Source: a virus. From it: 29,158 nt of DNA. The stretch lies in IMG/VR virus record IMGVR_UViG_3300045257_000097, positions 1 through 29,158 of that record. The stretch is one strand, 5' to 3'. Position 1 is the stretch's first letter, and each line of letters opens with the position of its first letter. Below are positions 253 through 27,517 of the stretch, piece after piece. The position numbers and the translations under genes were made by a program. A model generated the notes under the pieces. That model was not told the origin of the DNA. It saw nothing but the letters and a program-made list of their open reading frames with translations, and searched no databases.

Positions 253-882
253 ATGAACGAGGATGGATTATTCGAACTTTATAAGACAATAAAAGCTCGG
301 AGCACACCTGATAGGTGGGAAGTGGAGAAAAAAATTGAGTATTATAGGATTATTGAATTTGCTATACAAAAACACGGTGTTCAAAAAAGAAAATACACGG
401 AAGAACCTTGTTGGGTTCATTTAGCACAAGTAGCTGGTTTAGTATCTACGATTTATTCTAAACCTTCAGTTATTGCAGTTGCTTGGCTACATGATGTACT
501 AGAAGATACTGACACAACAAAAACGGAGATAGTTAGCTTATTTGGACACGATGTATTATACGGAGTTGAGTTTTTGTCTGATTTAGAAGGAGGGAACAGA
601 GCGACAAGAAAACAACTTAGCCGTGAACGCTTATCAAAAGCTCCAGCCTGGGTACAGGATATAAAGGTATGTGACTTAATAAGTAATACATCATCTATAT
701 TAAAACACGACCCCAAGTTTGCCAAAATTTACTTAGAAGAAATGAAATTATTATTAGATTGTCTAGCGTTAGCAGATAAAAGGCTTATAAAGCTGGCAAA
801 GACGACAATGGAAAATTCTTTTGATAATTATACTATTGAGGAAGAAGAGGAAGAATATTACGGCTGTCCATGTTGCGAGTAA
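253..882 (+). CDS. Small HD-domain hydrolase, SpoT/MESH1-like (putative alarmone hydrolase)
   Basis: The 209-residue protein has the HD metal-site pattern of the RelA/SpoT hydrolase and small alarmone hydrolase families: H56, then H80-D81 in WLHDVLEDT with E84-D85, then D141 and N145 in a KVCDLISNT motif. The spacing and the segment before the last motif (ERLSKAP) resemble MESH1-type enzymes, which remove pyrophosphate from (p)ppGpp. No synthetase domain follows. The C-terminus is unusual: a run of Glu and then CPCCE, which could bind a metal. The start is an ATG preceded by AAGG. It stands between an unknown gene and the non-coding leader of the portal gene, and is not obviously part of the head operon. 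Activity on (p)ppGpp is inferred; other HD nucleotidases remain possible. Confidence 0.72.
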   Translation: MNEDGLFELYKTIKARSTPDRWEVEKKIEYYRIIEFAIQKHGVQKRKYTEEPCWVHLAQVAGLVSTIYSKPSVIAVAWLHDVLEDTDTTKTEIVSLFGHDVLYGVEFLSDLEGGNRATRKQLSRERLSKAPAWVQDIKVCDLISNTSSILKHDPKFAKIYLEEMKLLLDCLALADKRLIKLAKTTMENSFDNYTIEEEEEEYYGCPCCE

Positions 883-1455: not shown

Positions 1456-2961
1456 ATGTCAAATAAACGTCATAAGCAAAAAAATCCCATTAAAACAGCC
1501 CCTAAAGAGTTAAAGCTGCCAGAGGCAAGAGGTGATGGCTGGGGTAATGTTATGACTGCAATCGGGGCTTCTAATAGCAGGGTAAATGCAACTACTTATG
1601 GTTTTGCTCCAAGACTTGATGAAAGAACACTAACAAATATTTATAGCACTGATTCTACAGCTCGTAGAGTCATCAATATCATTATTGACGATGCGCTTAG
1701 AGGATTTATAAACGCTGAAGATAAGTTGTTAGAAGAGTTAAAGCGTTTAAAGGTCAAGCAAAAAATTATTGAAGCTGCAACATGGGCTAGAGTATTTGGT
1801 GGATCGGCTTTAGTAGTATTTGCCGATGATGGTCAGGATATGGAAAAACCATTAAATACTGATCGTCTAAAAAAGATAATAAGTATTCAGTCGTATGACA
1901 GATGGCGTCTAACATTCTCACCCACCGACATTAGCCAGGATTTTTATAGCGAGCACTACGGGCATCCAGAGTTATATACTATTAATCCTATTAACGGCAT
2001 ACCTTTTAAGGTTCATAGAACTAGAATGCATTTATTTGGTGGTGAGCGTGTTCCTTTGCAGCAGTATATAAACAACAATAGATGGGATGATTCGGTTTTG
2101 CAGTCCTTGTACGAACCGCTAAGGAACTACGGACAAACTATGAACGCTACTGCTGAAATAGTACAGGACTTTATACAAACAGTTCTTGGGGTTAATGGTC
2201 TAACAGAAATGTTAGAACAAGGCAATGAAAAACTGGTGATAGACAGACTTAATCTTATTGATTTGTCAAGATCGGTAGCTAATACAGTCGTATTAGATTC
2301 GCAAAACGAAACATATTCTAAACATGCTAGCAGTGTAGCTGGATTAGCTGACTTATTAGAAAAGCAACAAGAGGTTATAAGCTCAGGGTCTGGACAACCA
2401 ATGACCAAGCTATTTGGAAATACTAGCAAGGGGCTTGGAGCATCTGGTCAAAATGACCCAGATAACTGGAATAATACTGTTGACGCTTACAGGGGTGATA
2501 CCTTGGAATCTCCAATTACTTGGTTAGTAGACTTAGTAGAAAAGCAAAGCTTGTGGACAGACAAACCGGAATCGTTTGATTGGTCATTCCCATCATTAAA
2601 AGTATCTAATGAACACGAAGTTGTTAAAAACAGACTCATGACAGCTCAAATGGATGAAATATACATGAATCGAGGGGCTGTAGATCCAGACATTTTATAT
2701 AAAAAGCGTTATATGGATGGCGGATTTGAAATAGATATATTCTTTTCTCCTGAAGAACTTGACGAGATAGGTGATTTAAGTGAAAGCAATGAATTTGAAG
2801 AGCAAGAATTACAACGTAGTACAAACGAAGTTAAAGAGCAAATTGCTAATGCTGCAAAGCAACAAAGTAATAGTGATTCATTAAATGAATTAGAGAATGC
2901 AGAGAAAGTTCTGCATCAAAAGTTAATAGAAACTTGTATAAACACTTTGGAAGGTATGTAA
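1456..2961 (+). CDS. Phage portal protein, DUF1073 (Mu gp29/gp6-like) family
   Basis: This 501-residue protein forms the ring at the capsid vertex through which DNA enters and to which the tail attaches. The DUF1073-type features are an N-terminal segment with YSTDSTARRVINIIIDDA, the ARVFGGSALVVF block near residue 115, RMHLFGGERVP near residue 195, and the helical GQPMTKLFGNTSKGLGASG segment near residue 315. Length is typical. Its ATG lacks a clear ribosome binding site; the upstream 60 bp is nearly all A and T, with TATAAT only 20 bp before the start, so a short leader or weak initiation is possible. It is normally followed directly by the Mu F-like gene, but here about 4 kb of fibre genes intervene. 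The terminase expected upstream is not in the window. Confidence 0.88.
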   Translation: MSNKRHKQKNPIKTAPKELKLPEARGDGWGNVMTAIGASNSRVNATTYGFAPRLDERTLTNIYSTDSTARRVINIIIDDALRGFINAEDKLLEELKRLKVKQKIIEAATWARVFGGSALVVFADDGQDMEKPLNTDRLKKIISIQSYDRWRLTFSPTDISQDFYSEHYGHPELYTINPINGIPFKVHRTRMHLFGGERVPLQQYINNNRWDDSVLQSLYEPLRNYGQTMNATAEIVQDFIQTVLGVNGLTEMLEQGNEKLVIDRLNLIDLSRSVANTVVLDSQNETYSKHASSVAGLADLLEKQQEVISSGSGQPMTKLFGNTSKGLGASGQNDPDNWNNTVDAYRGDTLESPITWLVDLVEKQSLWTDKPESFDWSFPSLKVSNEHEVVKNRLMTAQMDEIYMNRGAVDPDILYKKRYMDGGFEIDIFFSPEELDEIGDLSESNEFEEQELQRSTNEVKEQIANAAKQQSNSDSLNELENAEKVLHQKLIETCINTLEGM

Positions 2962-6714: not shown

Positions 6715-6990
6715 ATGAAAAACTTAAAAACTACACCGCAACAAATGATTGATGAGTGTTTAGCTAATATAGTTACTTTAAATGGGTATATAGCTGATCA
6801 ACAAAAGTTAATAGACCAAAACAACGAGGATATAACAGTTTATTTAGCCAATATAACTATATTACAAAACCTTATTGTAACAAGACAAAACAATAATGTA
6901 GAAAGAAATGCCCAAATTGGGGCGTTAAATGATCGTATTGGCATAGAGAACGATATAATAAATTATATAAATTCTTTACCAAAAAAATGA
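6715..6990 (+). CDS. Small coiled-coil protein of unknown function
   Basis: The 91-residue protein is almost entirely helical. It has regularly spaced Ile and Leu (LNGYIADQQKLIDQNNEDI, then ITILQNLIV) with many Gln and Asn between, as in a coiled-coil oligomer. It has no membrane segment or signal peptide. The ATG follows an AACGAGGA ribosome binding site, and its stop overlaps the start of the Mu F-like gene by four bases. Its place after the fibre gene suggests a fibre chaperone, a trimerisation partner or a minor structural protein. No family is recognised. Confidence 0.7.
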   Translation: MKNLKTTPQQMIDECLANIVTLNGYIADQQKLIDQNNEDITVYLANITILQNLIVTRQNNNVERNAQIGALNDRIGIENDIINYINSLPKK

Positions 6991-7832
6991 CTTACGCTGT
7001 AGCGAAGGTAATTACGTTTCCAAAGTACGAAGCCCTTAAGTATGAACGATACATACTTAAGAGGCTACGGGGAACTATTTCGCTTATAAACATACGTTTA
7101 AAACCTTTCTTTGCTAACAATAAACTTGATAGCGATACTAGAATTGATGATTATGTTGATGATTTACAAAACCTATTAACTGACATAGCTACATTTATAA
7201 CCGTCAATGATAATCAGCTTATAAGAGATCTATTGTTAACTGGTAGATCAATATTACAATACACCAATAAACAACTTTACAATTCATTCAAAGATATTCT
7301 AACTGTAAAAGTAGCGTCACCCAGTTTGATGCTAAATATTTTAAATCAACCGCTATTAAATCCAGATATTGATTTACTATTAAAATCCTGGGTATCAACA
7401 AACGTTAGTTTAATAAAGACCATACAAACAGACTTATTAAGCCAAGTTGGCTTTGTTATAGAAAGTAGTTACCGCTCAGCTTTATCAATGCCAGAGCTAA
7501 CGAAACAATTACAAAAAAGGTTCAATATCTCTCGCAACAAAGCTCGTCTTATTGCTAGAGATCAAACTGCTAAACTTCATTCTGATTACATTAAGCATGA
7601 ACATAAACAAGTAGGCATAACGCAATATGTATGGCTAACATCTAATGATGAGCGTGTAAGAACTAGCCATAAAGTGTTGAATGGCAAAGTATGTCAATGG
7701 AATGATGAGCTAACTTATAGGGATTCGGAAGATGGAAGGCTAAAGAGCAAAAGATCCATTGGTGGTGTCCCGTTACAAGTGGGACAAGACTTCCAATGTC
7801 GTTGCTCTTTAGCTGCTATCGTTAAATTATAG
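6987..7832 (+). CDS. Phage head morphogenesis protein, Mu gpF-like
   Basis: The 281-residue protein is a minor head protein of the Mu gpF/SPP1 gp7 family. The family motif lies in the C-terminal part: YVWLTSNDERVRTSHKVLNG followed by a final CRC segment (DFQCRCSLAAIV). The N-terminal two thirds are helical. These proteins bind the portal and may be injected with DNA or guide capsid assembly. The start overlaps the preceding gene (ATGA). Its stop codon overlaps by six bases, tail to tail, with the stop of the outer-membrane gene on the other strand, so no intrinsic terminator separates them. Confidence 0.87.
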   Translation: MTYAVAKVITFPKYEALKYERYILKRLRGTISLINIRLKPFFANNKLDSDTRIDDYVDDLQNLLTDIATFITVNDNQLIRDLLLTGRSILQYTNKQLYNSFKDILTVKVASPSLMLNILNQPLLNPDIDLLLKSWVSTNVSLIKTIQTDLLSQVGFVIESSYRSALSMPELTKQLQKRFNISRNKARLIARDQTAKLHSDYIKHEHKQVGITQYVWLTSNDERVRTSHKVLNGKVCQWNDELTYRDSEDGRLKSKRSIGGVPLQVGQDFQCRCSLAAIVKL

Positions 7833-8474
7833 ATTAAGTCTTATTGCTGTCATTATAGCATGACCTTTGTAATTATTTATGTACTCACCTAAATGTTGAT
7901 AACTATAACCAATTTCTAGATGTGTATTATTAAATAATTTTCTGTTTACACCTAAGTAAATCGCATAAGTCAAATCTTTTTTTTCTGATATTACATCTGA
8001 ATCCAGTCCTTTTGTCAATACGCCTTTTGTTTTTGAGATTCCAGCACCTAAGCCCCCATATAGTGTATTACCTTTAATTTTTAATAAATCTACAAAAAGA
8101 TTGATTTTCCCTGTGGTGACTTTTCCATAAGTGCAAATCTTATTATCATCTACCAAAGGATTTGAATTTCTTTGAGCACACAGATTAGCATGGTAAAAAG
8201 CATGTCTTATATTAGAAAAATGTTCGATTGATAAATCTATTCTGGCGTTGTCAGCAATATCATAACCAATAGCAAAACCAATAAATGGGGTTTTTTTACT
8301 AGTCATAGCACCAACTTTTTGCGGGCTAAAATGTCCCAATATAGGTTTTATATAATAATTAGAATTTTCAGCTTTGGCTACGTTTACAAACGTTAGAACT
8401 ACCGCTCCTAAAAGAACATTTAGTAATATGTGCAGTAGTATAATAATTAAATAAGCTCTCGTTTTTGTTAGCAT
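7827..8474 (-). CDS. Outer-membrane beta-barrel protein, Rickettsia Adr1/Adr2-like (cargo gene)
   Basis: I choose ATG at 8474, which has GAGG six bases upstream, giving 215 residues. A signal peptide is clear: basic start, long hydrophobic stretch, cleavage after AKA at residue 35. The mature part alternates polar and hydrophobic residues in beta strands and ends in an aromatic/hydrophobic strand (YKGHAIMTAIRLNL). The segments GYDIADNARIDLSIEHFS and NNYKGHAIMTAIRLNL resemble, from memory, Rickettsia Adr1/Adr2 surface antigens, which bind host factors such as vitronectin. Two Cys flank an extracellular-loop-like stretch. It is the only minus-strand gene among the head genes and has its own upstream region, which fits a moron. 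Other small 8-stranded barrels are possible. Confidence 0.72.
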   Translation of the reverse strand: MLTKTRAYLIIILLHILLNVLLGAVVLTFVNVAKAENSNYYIKPILGHFSPQKVGAMTSKKTPFIGFAIGYDIADNARIDLSIEHFSNIRHAFYHANLCAQRNSNPLVDDNKICTYGKVTTGKINLFVDLLKIKGNTLYGGLGAGISKTKGVLTKGLDSDVISEKKDLTYAIYLGVNRKLFNNTHLEIGYSYQHLGEYINNYKGHAIMTAIRLNL

Positions 8475-8552
8475 AATAACCTCGTATTTAAATTGTAAAA
8501 GTAACAAAGGTTAACAGTAAAAAGTTAAATTATCAATAATTAATTAATAATA

Positions 8553-8583
8553 TTGACAATTATGTAAACTTAGTTAATATATT
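8553..8583 (+). promoter_or_regulatory. Candidate promoter for the capsid gene block
   Basis: TTGACA at 8553-8558 is followed by TAATAT at 8575-8580 (16-bp spacer) or TATATT at 8578-8583 (19-bp spacer). It lies 30-50 bp before the TTG start of the prohead protease gene. Read on the other strand, the same site gives TTGTCA, which may serve the outward-facing membrane-protein gene, so 8475-8609 probably holds divergent promoters. The motif AGTTAAT followed by TAT also occurs upstream of the portal gene near 1423. Confidence 0.45.
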
Positions 8584-8609
8584 AGTAATACATTAATATT
8601 GGTGACATC

Positions 8610-9728
8610 TTGACGGATATAAGAATAGACAGAGTAAAACTTGGCAAAGTATCAAAGACTCCGGAGGGGTTTTTAAAAGGAGATGCTGTTGTCACTAGAA
8701 CTGGCGTTTTTGTATATCACAATATGGACGGCACAGAACGTAGAGAGTTAAGACATCCTAAGGATGTTTTAATAAGTGAAAGCTTAGAAACATTAAAATC
8801 ATTACCTATAACCAATGATCACCCAAGCACATTAGTTAACGTTGACAATGCGGATTCTTTAGTTGTGGGAATGACTGGCGAGACGGTAAAAATCGAAGAA
8901 GGTTTTGTCGCCGTATCTTTAAATATTACTCACAAAGATGCTATAGAAGCGATTAACAATGGTAAACATGAGTTGTCTGCTGGATATAGGGTCGATCTAA
9001 TTGAAGAAGTCGGAGAATATGAAGGCGAAAAATACACTCATCGCCAAACCAACATTAACTACAATCACATTGCATGTGTAGATAAAGGCAGAGCCGGTGC
9101 GGTGGCTAGGCTAAATCTAGATGGAGCATTTATTCAATGCGAAGAAATCAAAAACGAAACAAAGGAAATTATGACAATTAATAAAGACAACGAAGGCGAG
9201 AGCCTTATTGAAAAATTGGCAGAAACGGTAATTAAAACAACTGTTGACACCGAAACAAAATCAATAACTGAAGAAGTAAAGGAAGTGAAGGCACTTGTTG
9301 AGGGTGAAGTAAGCTCTATTGAATCCGAATCTAATAACGATTCGATTGAATCAGTTATCGAGAAACTAAGAGCTGAAAATGAAATGCTCAAAAGCACCAA
9401 AATAAATGTTGACTCCTTGGTTGCTGAAAAAGCCATACAAAGAGTTTTGCTTTTGAATAAGGCTGCATCAATCATGAACACAGACGGACTGATTGACAAG
9501 ACCGAAAGAGAAATCATGGAAAGTGCAATTAAATCAAGACTTAATTGCGAAGCTAACTTTGCTGATAAGTCAGATGACTATGTAGCTGGTAGATTTGATG
9601 CAGTTATTGAAGATAACCAATACAGAAACATTAAAAAACAAATGACCAATTTAGATATGAGTGTTGCGGATAAAAAGCCAAAAACTCTTATGGATATTTT
9701 GAAAGCTCAACACGCTGGGGGTAAATAA
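8610..9728 (+). CDS. Prohead protease fused to scaffold, DUF2213 family
   Basis: This 372-residue protein starts at TTG 8610; an in-frame stop at 8586 rules out a longer form, and GGTG lies just upstream. Residues 1-175 form the DUF2213 domain, a HK97-like prohead serine protease fold with probable catalytic H71 (ITNDHP) and S123 (HELSAGYRVDL), and NHIACVDKGRAG near residue 153. Residues 188-360 are highly charged and helical (EEVKEVKALVEGEV, KLRAENEMLKS), as expected of a scaffold. The enzyme would trim the scaffold and capsid proteins during head maturation. An internal ATG with a strong ribosome binding site at 9171 could yield the scaffold alone. Confidence 0.82.
   Translation: MTDIRIDRVKLGKVSKTPEGFLKGDAVVTRTGVFVYHNMDGTERRELRHPKDVLISESLETLKSLPITNDHPSTLVNVDNADSLVVGMTGETVKIEEGFVAVSLNITHKDAIEAINNGKHELSAGYRVDLIEEVGEYEGEKYTHRQTNINYNHIACVDKGRAGAVARLNLDGAFIQCEEIKNETKEIMTINKDNEGESLIEKLAETVIKTTVDTETKSITEEVKEVKALVEGEVSSIESESNNDSIESVIEKLRAENEMLKSTKINVDSLVAEKAIQRVLLLNKAASIMNTDGLIDKTEREIMESAIKSRLNCEANFADKSDDYVAGRFDAVIEDNQYRNIKKQMTNLDMSVADKKPKTLMDILKAQHAGGK
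9171..9728 (+). CDS. Nested scaffold form from an internal in-frame start
   Basis: ATG 9171 is codon 188 of the protease gene and lies right after AAAGGAAATT, a better ribosome binding site than that of the full-length TTG start. It falls exactly where the protease domain ends and the charged helical region begins. It would give a 185-residue scaffold. Nested scaffold genes are known in lambda (C/Nu3) and related phages. The existence of the product is inferred from position and signal only. Confidence 0.45.
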   Translation: MTINKDNEGESLIEKLAETVIKTTVDTETKSITEEVKEVKALVEGEVSSIESESNNDSIESVIEKLRAENEMLKSTKINVDSLVAEKAIQRVLLLNKAASIMNTDGLIDKTEREIMESAIKSRLNCEANFADKSDDYVAGRFDAVIEDNQYRNIKKQMTNLDMSVADKKPKTLMDILKAQHAGGK

Positions 9729-9729
9729 T

Positions 9730-10188
9730 ATGGCATACGGTTATATATATCCAGAACCGCAAGCAGGTCAACCTTACGATACTACTATCAAAACAAATGA
9801 CAGTTTTGCGGCTGAAGAAGTCATAGGGTTTGGATTACCTTTGATGAGAGGGTCAGACAAAGAAAAACAAGTAAAAGTATTCAACGGTGGTATTACAACA
9901 AAACTGTTAGGTATTTCCGGTTATTCAGCTACTAGAATTGAAGGTTCATACGCGCCTCAATCTATGGTTACAGTAGTCACTATGGGTAGAGTATGGGTAC
10001 CTCTTGTAGGTACTGTAACGGTTCAACCTGGTCAAACAGCTTATCTTAATATTACTGATGACATAATCACTAACGTTGCCGTAACAGATGAAACAATCGC
10101 TATAGGCAGATTTTTAACCGGTGGTACTACTAATCCATCAGTACAAAAGCTATTCGTATTAGAACTTGAAGTCGGATTTGAGGAGTAG
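9730..10188 (+). CDS. Capsid decoration/cement-like protein 1, DUF2190-like
   Basis: This 152-residue beta-rich protein belongs to a tandem set of three related genes. Shared blocks are an N-terminal GQPYDTTIKTNDSFAAEE-type segment, a central MVTVVTMGRVWVPLVG core and a C-terminal IAIGRFLTGGT. DUF2190-type proteins lie next to the capsid gene in many phages and are thought to stabilise the head surface. The start lies 1 bp after the stop of the protease/scaffold gene. It is closest to the third copy. Confidence 0.7.
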   Translation: MAYGYIYPEPQAGQPYDTTIKTNDSFAAEEVIGFGLPLMRGSDKEKQVKVFNGGITTKLLGISGYSATRIEGSYAPQSMVTVVTMGRVWVPLVGTVTVQPGQTAYLNITDDIITNVAVTDETIAIGRFLTGGTTNPSVQKLFVLELEVGFEE

Positions 10189-10692
10189 ATGGAATACGGA
10201 CAACATGCACCGGCATTAGCTGGTCAATTAGAAAGTTCACCTCTTAACATCAAAGATAGTTTCACAGCTTCTGGAGTCATAGATTTTGGCAGACCAGTAA
10301 TGAGGCACACTCCTCTAGAAAAGACTTGTGCGATATACAACAACTTTGGAGCGACTGTTTTAAACAAATTCTTAGGCGTAGCAGTTTACAACGCTCTTAG
10401 TCTTCCAAGAGAGGCTAATCCATTAGGCGGAGTATATGTCGATGGAGATGCTGTGACTGTACTAACAGCCGGTAGAGTATGGACAACTCTAAAACCGGGG
10501 CTTGTTGTTACAGCTGGCGACTATTGTTACATAGATGAAAGTACTACTGTTATTAAGGATGACTTTTCTAATATTCCAGTAGGCACATTTATAACAGTAG
10601 GAAGGTTCTTAACTGGTGGTACGTCAGATGGGCTCAACGGAGAAAAGGTATTTCTTTTAGAAATCCAAACGGGCTTTAACGCCCCACTTTAA
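10189..10692 (+). CDS. Capsid decoration/cement-like protein 2, DUF2190-like
   Basis: The second copy has 167 residues and starts immediately after the stop of the first, with GAGGAG inside the end of the preceding gene as ribosome binding site. It keeps the core (DAVTVLTAGRVWTTL) and the end (ITVGRFLTGGT), but has extra residues around the middle (REANPLGGVYVDGD) and is the most divergent of the three. The difference suggests a separate position or role on the head. Confidence 0.68.
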   Translation: MEYGQHAPALAGQLESSPLNIKDSFTASGVIDFGRPVMRHTPLEKTCAIYNNFGATVLNKFLGVAVYNALSLPREANPLGGVYVDGDAVTVLTAGRVWTTLKPGLVVTAGDYCYIDESTTVIKDDFSNIPVGTFITVGRFLTGGTSDGLNGEKVFLLEIQTGFNAPL

Positions 10693-10714
10693 CTAATACA
10701 TAGAGAAAAATAAT

Positions 10715-11176
10715 ATGGCATACGATTACAAATACACAGTAGCGCAGGACGGACAAATAGTCGACTGCACTATAAATGTTAAAACAAGCTTTGGAGCTGA
10801 AGAGGCTATCCCCTTTGGTCAACCCTTGATTAGGGGTACAGATCCACAAAAACAAGTCAAGAGATTTCCAGCTGGCGGTGCATCTACTCTCAAATTCCTT
10901 GGAGTATCGGGTTATGACCCAGAGCAAATAGGTGGTTCTTATCCAACAGCTAGCATGGTTACGGTTGTTGAGCAAGGCAGAGTATGGGTGCCATTGATAG
11001 GAGCTATAGCGGTAGATGCTGGAGACTGGGCTTACTTAGACAGAAGCACTGGCTTGATTACGGATATAGAGCCTGCATCAGCAAATAAAATCACTATAGG
11101 TAGATTCTTAACTGGCGGTGCGTCATCTGGTACCAACCTATTTGCGCTTGAAATAATTCCGGGTTTAGAAGTTTAA
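10715..11176 (+). CDS. Capsid decoration/cement-like protein 3, DUF2190-like
   Basis: The third copy has 153 residues and is clearly a paralogue of the first: both begin MAY, both share FGxPLxRGxD, GRVWVPL and IGRFLTGG. It has its own weak ribosome binding site (AGAG) and is followed after 23 bp by the major capsid gene. Three copies in a row is more than usual for this module. Confidence 0.7.
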   Translation: MAYDYKYTVAQDGQIVDCTINVKTSFGAEEAIPFGQPLIRGTDPQKQVKRFPAGGASTLKFLGVSGYDPEQIGGSYPTASMVTVVEQGRVWVPLIGAIAVDAGDWAYLDRSTGLITDIEPASANKITIGRFLTGGASSGTNLFALEIIPGLEV

Positions 11177-26210: not shown

Positions 26211-26663
26211 TTACAAAATCGCAGAATTTGAAATTTTTAAATTTATCATTTCTAAATCTTCGCTATTCCATAGCTTTTGTTCTAGCATTCTCAAAGCCCT
26301 TGTTTCCCTTGGTTCTCTTCTGTCACAAAACAATCTTTCAGAGGCTAATTTAAATCTTTCATTATTAACATCATCTAGATTTGATGGGCTAGGTTGTATA
26401 TGTTTGCTATGAAAATAACTAATTAAGGCGCATAGCTTGTTTTTTGGCAATTCAATTTTTAGATGTTTATTTAATTCATCACATATTGTATTAAGATCAC
26501 TAAGTAACAAGTAATGGGCTATATCCGAAGTAATAGACTTGGTAGAAGAACCGGCTTTAATTAAATGGTTGTAGCCTATTATCCCTTGCTTCACTTCTGT
26601 AAATAACTTTGTTGAACTCATTACAAAGTTTCTTGTCTCGTTGCTAATAGTAAAGTTTTTCAT
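26211..26663 (-). CDS. Unknown 150-residue helical protein
   Basis: The ATG follows a clear AAGGAAAT site. The product is mixed helical, with LLLSDLNTICDELNKHLKIE and a basic/acidic region RREPRETRALRMLEQKLW. It has no signal peptide, membrane segment or known motif. It is separated by 12 bp from the small gene before it. A regulatory or nucleic-acid-linked role is possible but not shown. Confidence 0.65.
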   Translation of the reverse strand: MKNFTISNETRNFVMSSTKLFTEVKQGIIGYNHLIKAGSSTKSITSDIAHYLLLSDLNTICDELNKHLKIELPKNKLCALISYFHSKHIQPSPSNLDDVNNERFKLASERLFCDRREPRETRALRMLEQKLWNSEDLEMINLKISNSAIL

Positions 26664-26980: not shown

Positions 26981-27119
26981 TTTTATTACCTTTAAAAATT
27001 AAATATATAATCTCTAACAAGACTAAAAATACCGTAAATATTACCGAAAAACGAAAGTCGATTAAAAAAGAAGCTATTATAAATATTAAAAAAAAATTCA
27101 GCCTCCTGTAATTATTCAT
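26973..27119 (-). CDS. Small membrane protein, 48 residues
   Basis: ATG 27119 to TGA 26973-26975. The product has a basic start (NNYRRL), two hydrophobic stretches (FFLIFIIASFLI and FSVIFTVFLVLLEIIYLIF), and the end KGNKND. It overlaps both neighbours by 8 bp. Its last codons match the end of the 27311-27517 gene, which also ends GNKND. Confidence 0.5.
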   Translation of the reverse strand: MNNYRRLNFFLIFIIASFLIDFRFSVIFTVFLVLLEIIYLIFKGNKND

Positions 27120-27318
27120 TTTTATAACTCAACTTTTCTTTAATACCTTTTAGTTCATAAATTATTTCGTCTATTTGTTCATGCTGAGATCGATGAATAC
27201 TCTTCTCCCCTCTTGCCTTGTATCGCTCCTCCATAATCTTGGAGTCATTATCTGAACATGTAAGAATGTGAAACAATGTAAAGCCGGTTAAAATCCCGAT
27301 AATTATTATATTAATCAT
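27112..27318 (-). CDS. Single-span small protein, copy 2 of a tandem pair
   Basis: This 68-residue protein has a hydrophobic N-terminal anchor (IIIIGILTGFTLFHILTC), then CSDND, and a charged helix with RYKARGEKSIH, DEIIYELKGIKEK. It is a paralogue of the gene just upstream. The Cys after the anchor recalls a lipobox, but the preceding residue is Thr, so lipidation is doubtful. It is not a recognised family. Confidence 0.65.
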   Translation of the reverse strand: MINIIIIGILTGFTLFHILTCSDNDSKIMEERYKARGEKSIHRSQHEQIDEIIYELKGIKEKLSYKNE

Positions 27319-27517
27319 TTTTATTACCCATCTTTTTATTAAGAACTTTTAGCTCGTGAATTATTTCATCCATTTGTTCTGAATTATATTTATGAATATA
27401 TTTCTCACCCCTTGAATTATATCTTGATTCTCTTTGTATATCCTCATTATCCGAACATGATTTAATGCTTATTAATACAATCGTAGTAAATACTATTGTA
27501 ATTATTGTATTAATCAT
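27311..27517 (-). CDS. Single-span small protein, copy 1 of a tandem pair
   Basis: This 68-residue protein shares the layout of the next gene: anchor (IITIVFTTIVLISIKSC), CSDNE, RYNSRGEKYIH, and DEIIHELKVLNKK. Conserved positions are CSDN, RY..RGEK.IH and DEII.ELK. It begins directly after the helicase stop and overlaps its paralogue by 8 bp. The charged helix could make a coiled-coil contact in the cytoplasm. Function unknown. Confidence 0.65.
   Translation of the reverse strand: MINTIITIVFTTIVLISIKSCSDNEDIQRESRYNSRGEKYIHKYNSEQMDEIIHELKVLNKKMGNKND

Follow-up and report, generated by a model that had tools for sequence, protein, structure and literature searches.

A putative accessory Adr-related outer-membrane barrel gene in the head module of a probable Rickettsiaceae phage

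The DNA analysed here (the window: an IMG/VR virus record of 29,158 bp, taken at its full length) carries between two head genes a minus-strand gene, OMP, whose predicted product is related to the Adr surface proteins of Rickettsia. Our best explanation, which as a whole we consider probable, is that the window belongs to a tailed phage of Rickettsiaceae; that OMP represents an old phage-specific subfamily, derived from a stem lineage of the Rickettsiaceae Adr/Adr-like family and inherited with the phage since; and that its product is an accessory barrel that would remodel the surface of the infected Rickettsiaceae cell. Rickettsiales phages outside Wolbachia are little known, and among the titles and abstracts listed in searches of open-access papers we found no report of an Adr-like gene on a phage. 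The features on which the argument draws are collected in Table 1, together with further observations on the window.

Table 1. Positions of the OMP gene, its surroundings and other features of the window
Feature	Position	Strand	Basis or remark
Adr-related outer-membrane barrel gene (OMP)	7827..8474	-	215 aa; ATG at 8474, stop at 7827-7829
Predicted signal peptide, residues 1-35 (...NVAKA/EN)	8370..8474	-	sequence; aligns with A-x-A/E of relatives
Predicted surface loop 2 (residues 87-121), enlarged, between Cys99 and Cys114	8112..8216	-	alignment
MuF-like minor head protein, left neighbour	6987..7832	+	profile matches
OMP/MuF tail-to-tail overlap, 6 bp	7827..7832		identical arrangement in L274 and L275
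Conserved divergent regulatory region, 135 bp (138 and 136 bp in sister phages)	8475..8609		comparison
Sigma-70-like promoter TTGACA-16-TAATAT, toward head protease	8553..8580	+	kept in all three phages
23-bp near-perfect palindrome over the -10 box, operator-like	8574..8596		kept in OMP-bearing phages
DUF2213 head maturation protease, right neighbour, TTG start	8610..9728	+	profile matches
Portal protein	1456..2961	+	marker tying the window phage to Rickettsiaceae-borne phages
HD-domain phosphohydrolase (HD_4; phrog_990), upstream of portal	253-882		
Three tandem related small head-protein genes between protease and capsid	9730-11176		first copy phrog_563, virion structural protein
Weak sub-threshold phage lysozyme match	26211-26663	-	E 3e-4
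Overlapping tandem copies of a 68-aa protein	27112-27318, 27311-27517	-	hydrophobic N-terminus

The OMP cassette and its insertion site

The OMP reading frame is intact over 215 codons on the minus strand and, as an earlier note on this DNA had stated, stands alone there within the head operon, its flanking MuF and DUF2213 protease genes both being on the plus strand. A purine-rich GAGG lies upstream of the start codon. Using a portal profile built from three Rickettsiaceae-type phages, we recovered nine sister contigs, two of which carry OMP: L274 and L275 (both from IMG/VR; portals 62% and 56% identical to that of the window, respectively) possess an orthologue at the same site, on the same strand and with the same 6-bp overlap with MuF. 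Since the orthologue recurs at the same site and strand in these two sister phages, OMP is a genuine gene and not a chance ORF. Chimeric assembly was considered as well and is rejected, as the identical junction recurs in two further contigs. No copies besides those of L274 and L275 came to light when we scanned with the three phage OMPs. As a lone query the window protein (P0001) detected nothing in viral contigs, genome contigs or phages, and only weak Rhizobium matches in plasmids, and a mostly host-derived alignment retrieved no phage copies because its patterns misfit the phage subfamily.

The earlier note's description of the gene as phage cargo holds: OMP is absent from the MuF/protease site in L277 (portal 52% identical), L282 and the collinear contig G230:C2, in the last of which nothing separates the MuF and protease genes, which share a 4-bp overlap. 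Present in L274 and L275 and missing from collinear relatives, OMP is an added unit, as phage accessory (moron) genes are. Insertions between MuF and protease are common in the wider group of phages: of 79 related loci (L011-L090), 21 have a junction of more than 300 bp there, and what it contains varies. While such a junction might also have received a recombined host gene as a neutral passenger, useless to phage and host alike, we regard this as very unlikely: although head-protein identity among the three phages is just 52-73%, all of them retain an open frame with its signal peptide and cysteine pair, the barrel residues and the regulatory region, and dN is well under a saturated dS. A virion or lysis component, for instance an outer-membrane factor needed late in infection, would suit the fixed place of OMP in the region of the late structural operon. 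We think it just as improbable, given that the gene lies on the opposite strand, is missing where collinear relatives have the same head module, and belongs to a family of cellular outer-membrane barrels.

Upstream of OMP, the region that separates it from the protease gene is 64-70% identical among the three phages overall and 68-79% in its core, whereas third codon positions of the neighbouring genes differ by about half. The conserved forward promoter has TAATAT or TAAAAT as its -10 box across the three phages. The palindrome overlying this box is single-copy in the window (0.02 copies expected by chance at up to three mismatches, a guide value, as the pattern was derived from this very site) and recurs in the sister phages with 0 and 2 mismatches. 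This conservation suggests that the stretch 5' of OMP is a regulated divergent region. The clear conserved promoter points away from OMP to the head genes, and its role may be to drive those that follow the inserted cassette; we found no terminator at the cassette.

Kinship with the Adr family

Profile searches place OMP among outer-membrane proteins and, more specifically, near Adr. The Pfam search returned OMP_b-brl with an E value of 2e-5, just below the Pfam cut-off, and the N-terminus is a hydrophobic signal with cleavage predicted between AKA and EN, in line with the signal peptide and barrel proposed in the earlier note; beside the signal peptide, alternating strands are seen in the sequence. 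The NCBIfam search returned Rick_Adr (NF052636) with an E value of 1e-17 over nearly the full length, OMP residues 17-213 aligning with profile positions 4-222 of 224. Homologues are found in 54 of 344 Rickettsiales genomes (selected by a 16S pattern scan; best E 4e-18) and in 4 of 399 genomes of a phylum-wide Pseudomonadota sample (best E 4e-5). By GroEL and 16S, the genomes with the best matches go with the Rickettsia-type genomes, separate from both Midichloriaceae and Anaplasmataceae, and are assigned to Rickettsiaceae on that ground. We aligned the window protein with 31 proteins from Rickettsiales genomes: G70, Y71, R78, D129, G145, G175 and Y190 are invariant among the 32 sequences, N76, D80, H205, G210 and R212 are nearly so, and the two blocks that had been quoted as recalling Adr1 and Adr2 are signatures of the family as a whole. 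The kinship with Rickettsia Adr put forward in the earlier note is thus sustained by the full-length match, the Rickettsiales homologues and the common motifs. Adr-like genes stand in tandem arrays of at least two copies in several Rickettsiaceae genomes (L177, L180-L184, L193).

Compared with the PDB, the family profile matches Opa60 (E about 3e-6), NspA (about 7e-6) and also OmpA, all of them outer-membrane barrels. Opa60 and NspA of Neisseria are the nearest solved structures, albeit through a weak profile match, and differ from OMP in not being phage-borne; NspA has also served as the modelling template for Adr2 (PMC5491016). AlphaFold run on the window protein without an alignment gave a mean pLDDT of 40 and 31 for the two models from this single-sequence input. 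From the profile matches and the N-terminal signal, OMP is probably exported and probably forms an 8-stranded outer-membrane barrel. No match to the Ail/OmpX family was obtained in the Pfam and NCBIfam profile searches.

Homology to Adr does not amount to membership. The phage-encoded OMP shares with Rickettsia Adr1/Adr2 a homologous family, size, signal peptide, profile match over the full length and the GYxxxDNxRxDL and KGHxxxxxxR blocks, but scores 64.4 bits against a curated Rick_Adr cut-off of 210 bits; the sister-phage proteins score 60.9 and 67.7. Two proteins from the searched Rickettsiales set reach 244-245 bits, and on that score are Adr proper. When the window protein was the only phage sequence in the tree its placement was unsure, with a risk of long-branch artefacts, and AU tests did not decide. 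Adding the proteins of L274 and L275 improved the placement, though the tree tool warns of long branches: the three phage OMPs form one clade (support 100/100), this clade attaches to the Rickettsiaceae family at 97/94, and the host Adr and Adr-like proteins group without the phage OMPs at 98/90. A constraint uniting the phage OMPs and the main host group as a single clade was likewise not rejected. A tree with Rickettsiales surface antigens, as the earlier note had proposed, therefore recovers kinship with the Rickettsiaceae family but does not put OMP inside the Adr group, and of the term 'Adr-like' the homology stands while membership does not. Judged by these scores and by the tree, OMP is a distant cousin of Rickettsia Adr and not Adr1 or Adr2; because the phage clade lies beside the host Adr group, the gene is Adr kin without being a recent capture of either.

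Phage, host and lysogeny

The assignment to Rickettsiaceae rests chiefly on the portal, whose best cellular matches lie in two genomes (44-45% identical, E about 1e-121) that belong to Rickettsiaceae by the same GroEL and 16S comparison. In a portal tree of 76 sequences the window groups with G168:C68 and G230:C2 (SH-aLRT 98). The major capsid protein (MCP) by itself yielded one weak match, and in a single-sequence search of viral contigs no match. G230:C2 is a 57,766-bp contig of a Rickettsiaceae genome; its 99-bp terminal repeat suggests that it is circular, and its genes include ParA, DnaB, an HU-like protein, a lysozyme and a DNA methylase (loci L212-L215), so that we describe it as a phage-plasmid, probably circular. 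It matches 22 of the 35 window genes tested: the structural-module genes, from portal and fibre through head and tail to baseplate, are collinear, and the collagen-like fibre is common to both and unmatched in the remaining relatives of that comparison. Unlike the window, G230:C2 lacks OMP, and it has plasmid genes and a patatin-like phospholipase gene in its fibre region. The intracellular Rickettsiales host assumed in the earlier note accordingly agrees with the portal clade shared with Rickettsiaceae-borne phages and with this collinear phage-plasmid.

The phospholipase gene of G230:C2 lies at 4501-5514 of L212 (Pfam E 3e-21), and a patatin-like phospholipase is also present in the fibre region of L276, L277, L278, L280 and L282; it is unmatched in the three OMP carriers, the window, L274 and L275. 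Two contigs of 5,104 bp each, L279 (IMG/VR) and L271 (G168:C68), have the same portal position and identity and are probably the same sequence. A phage head and tail module of related type occurs on a Criblamydia sequanensis plasmid (L004); judged by the identity of DUF2213 and capsid, the window is closer to it than to the cultured phages compared.

That the window derives from a prophage which converts its lysogen, as the earlier note had it, goes further than its contents do: the 29-kb record has no integrase, bacterial flank or other prophage proof. Conversion is what we infer, along with barrel insertion, expression during lysogeny and the benefit. A profile match identifies an HTH regulator in the window, and lysogeny is suggested by this regulator together with the more distant phage-plasmid G230:C2.

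Divergent loops and the proposed surface role

OMP diverges about twice as fast as the adjacent head genes. Among the three phages it is 37-43% identical, as compared to 67-73% for MuF, 55-63% for the protease, 52-70% for MCP and 56-62% for the portal, with a dN of 0.52-0.61 versus 0.22-0.41 for neighbouring genes. Although dS is saturated, dN is below it, and OMP is hence under constraint overall. The barrel segments have stayed free of indels: wherever the aligned mature proteins show gaps, these lie in loops whose borders are predicted from the alignment. Relative to Adr1/Adr2, loop 2 is enlarged in all three phages and bracketed by a cysteine pair that is present in 3/3 phage OMPs and in 0/31 aligned host proteins. 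Loop 3 of the window protein has a charge of +1 as against +3 to +5 in the Rickettsia proteins, and loop 4 is short and neutral (11 residues, charge 0, versus 17-19 residues and +1 to +4).

These loops bear directly on whether a true Rickettsia-type Adr adhesin or complement-resistance factor has moved onto the phage to act as Adr1/Adr2 do in mammals. While the full-length Rick_Adr match and the common motifs speak for it, we consider it very improbable: beyond the score of 64 out of 210 bits and the position of the phage OMPs outside the host Adr clade, the near-neutral loop 3 and the short, uncharged loop 4 differ from their positively charged counterparts in Adr1, a pair of loops that suffices to confer serum resistance and to bind vitronectin (PMC5491016). 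Nor should adhesion be read from the name Adr, because Adr2 expressed in E. coli conferred serum resistance but no adherence (PMC5491016). On both counts, the loops and the Adr2 result, we do not retain the term 'adhesin' used in the earlier note.

Our preferred reading is a moron-type cassette at the MuF/protease junction, composed of the divergent regulatory region and the minus-strand OMP gene. Transcribed against the late operon, OMP would be exported by Sec in the infected or lysogenic cell, inserted into the outer membrane of the infected cell, and there would display fast-changing loops, foremost the cysteine-bracketed loop 2, that alter the binding partners of the cell surface. OMP is thus likely to reshape the surface of the Rickettsiaceae cell that the phage infects. 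The closest parallel is Lom of phage lambda (Ail/OmpX/PagC family), likewise a small phage-carried outer-membrane barrel gene, which is expressed in lambda lysogens (PMC7067206) and is involved in adhesion to buccal epithelial cells, according to work cited in PMC4198210. OMP differs from Lom in its family, in the order of its host and in its location on the opposite strand in the head module.

Such a surface change could benefit the bacterium's contact with its eukaryotic host, to which, as the likelier of two benefits, we give roughly an even chance, or else exclude competing phages, which comes second and is somewhat less probable. We favour host contact, and only weakly so, because the hosts are intracellular and the sister phages carry a patatin-like phospholipase. 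As a full alternative to our reading, superinfection exclusion would have the barrel mimic or mask an Adr-like receptor of this phage group, a receptor decoy by which the infected cell would stop adsorbing particles, or stop losing them to rivals. The phage OMP stems from a surface-protein family of its own hosts, often present there in tandem arrays; its loops diverge fast while the barrel is kept; and receptor inactivation is a common exclusion route (PMC11436027). A possible functional parallel is Cor of phi80/N15, a phage-encoded conversion protein that acts at the surface (PMC11436027). Sister phages with the same fibre module nevertheless do without OMP, and we rate the decoy as possible but on the whole unlikely.

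Returning to surface remodelling, a long-split phage OMP subfamily kept as a regulated cassette with a variable display loop may constitute a Lom-like conversion system in Rickettsiales, a proposal for which we see the case as evenly balanced. In practical terms, portal and OMP together provide a marker for finding more phages of this group. If the proposal is true, phages would have a hand in what an intracellular bacterium presents at its surface, be it to its eukaryotic host or to further phages, and with an Adr-related barrel maintained on phages, obligate intracellular bacteria could have surface traits that phages carry and diversify.
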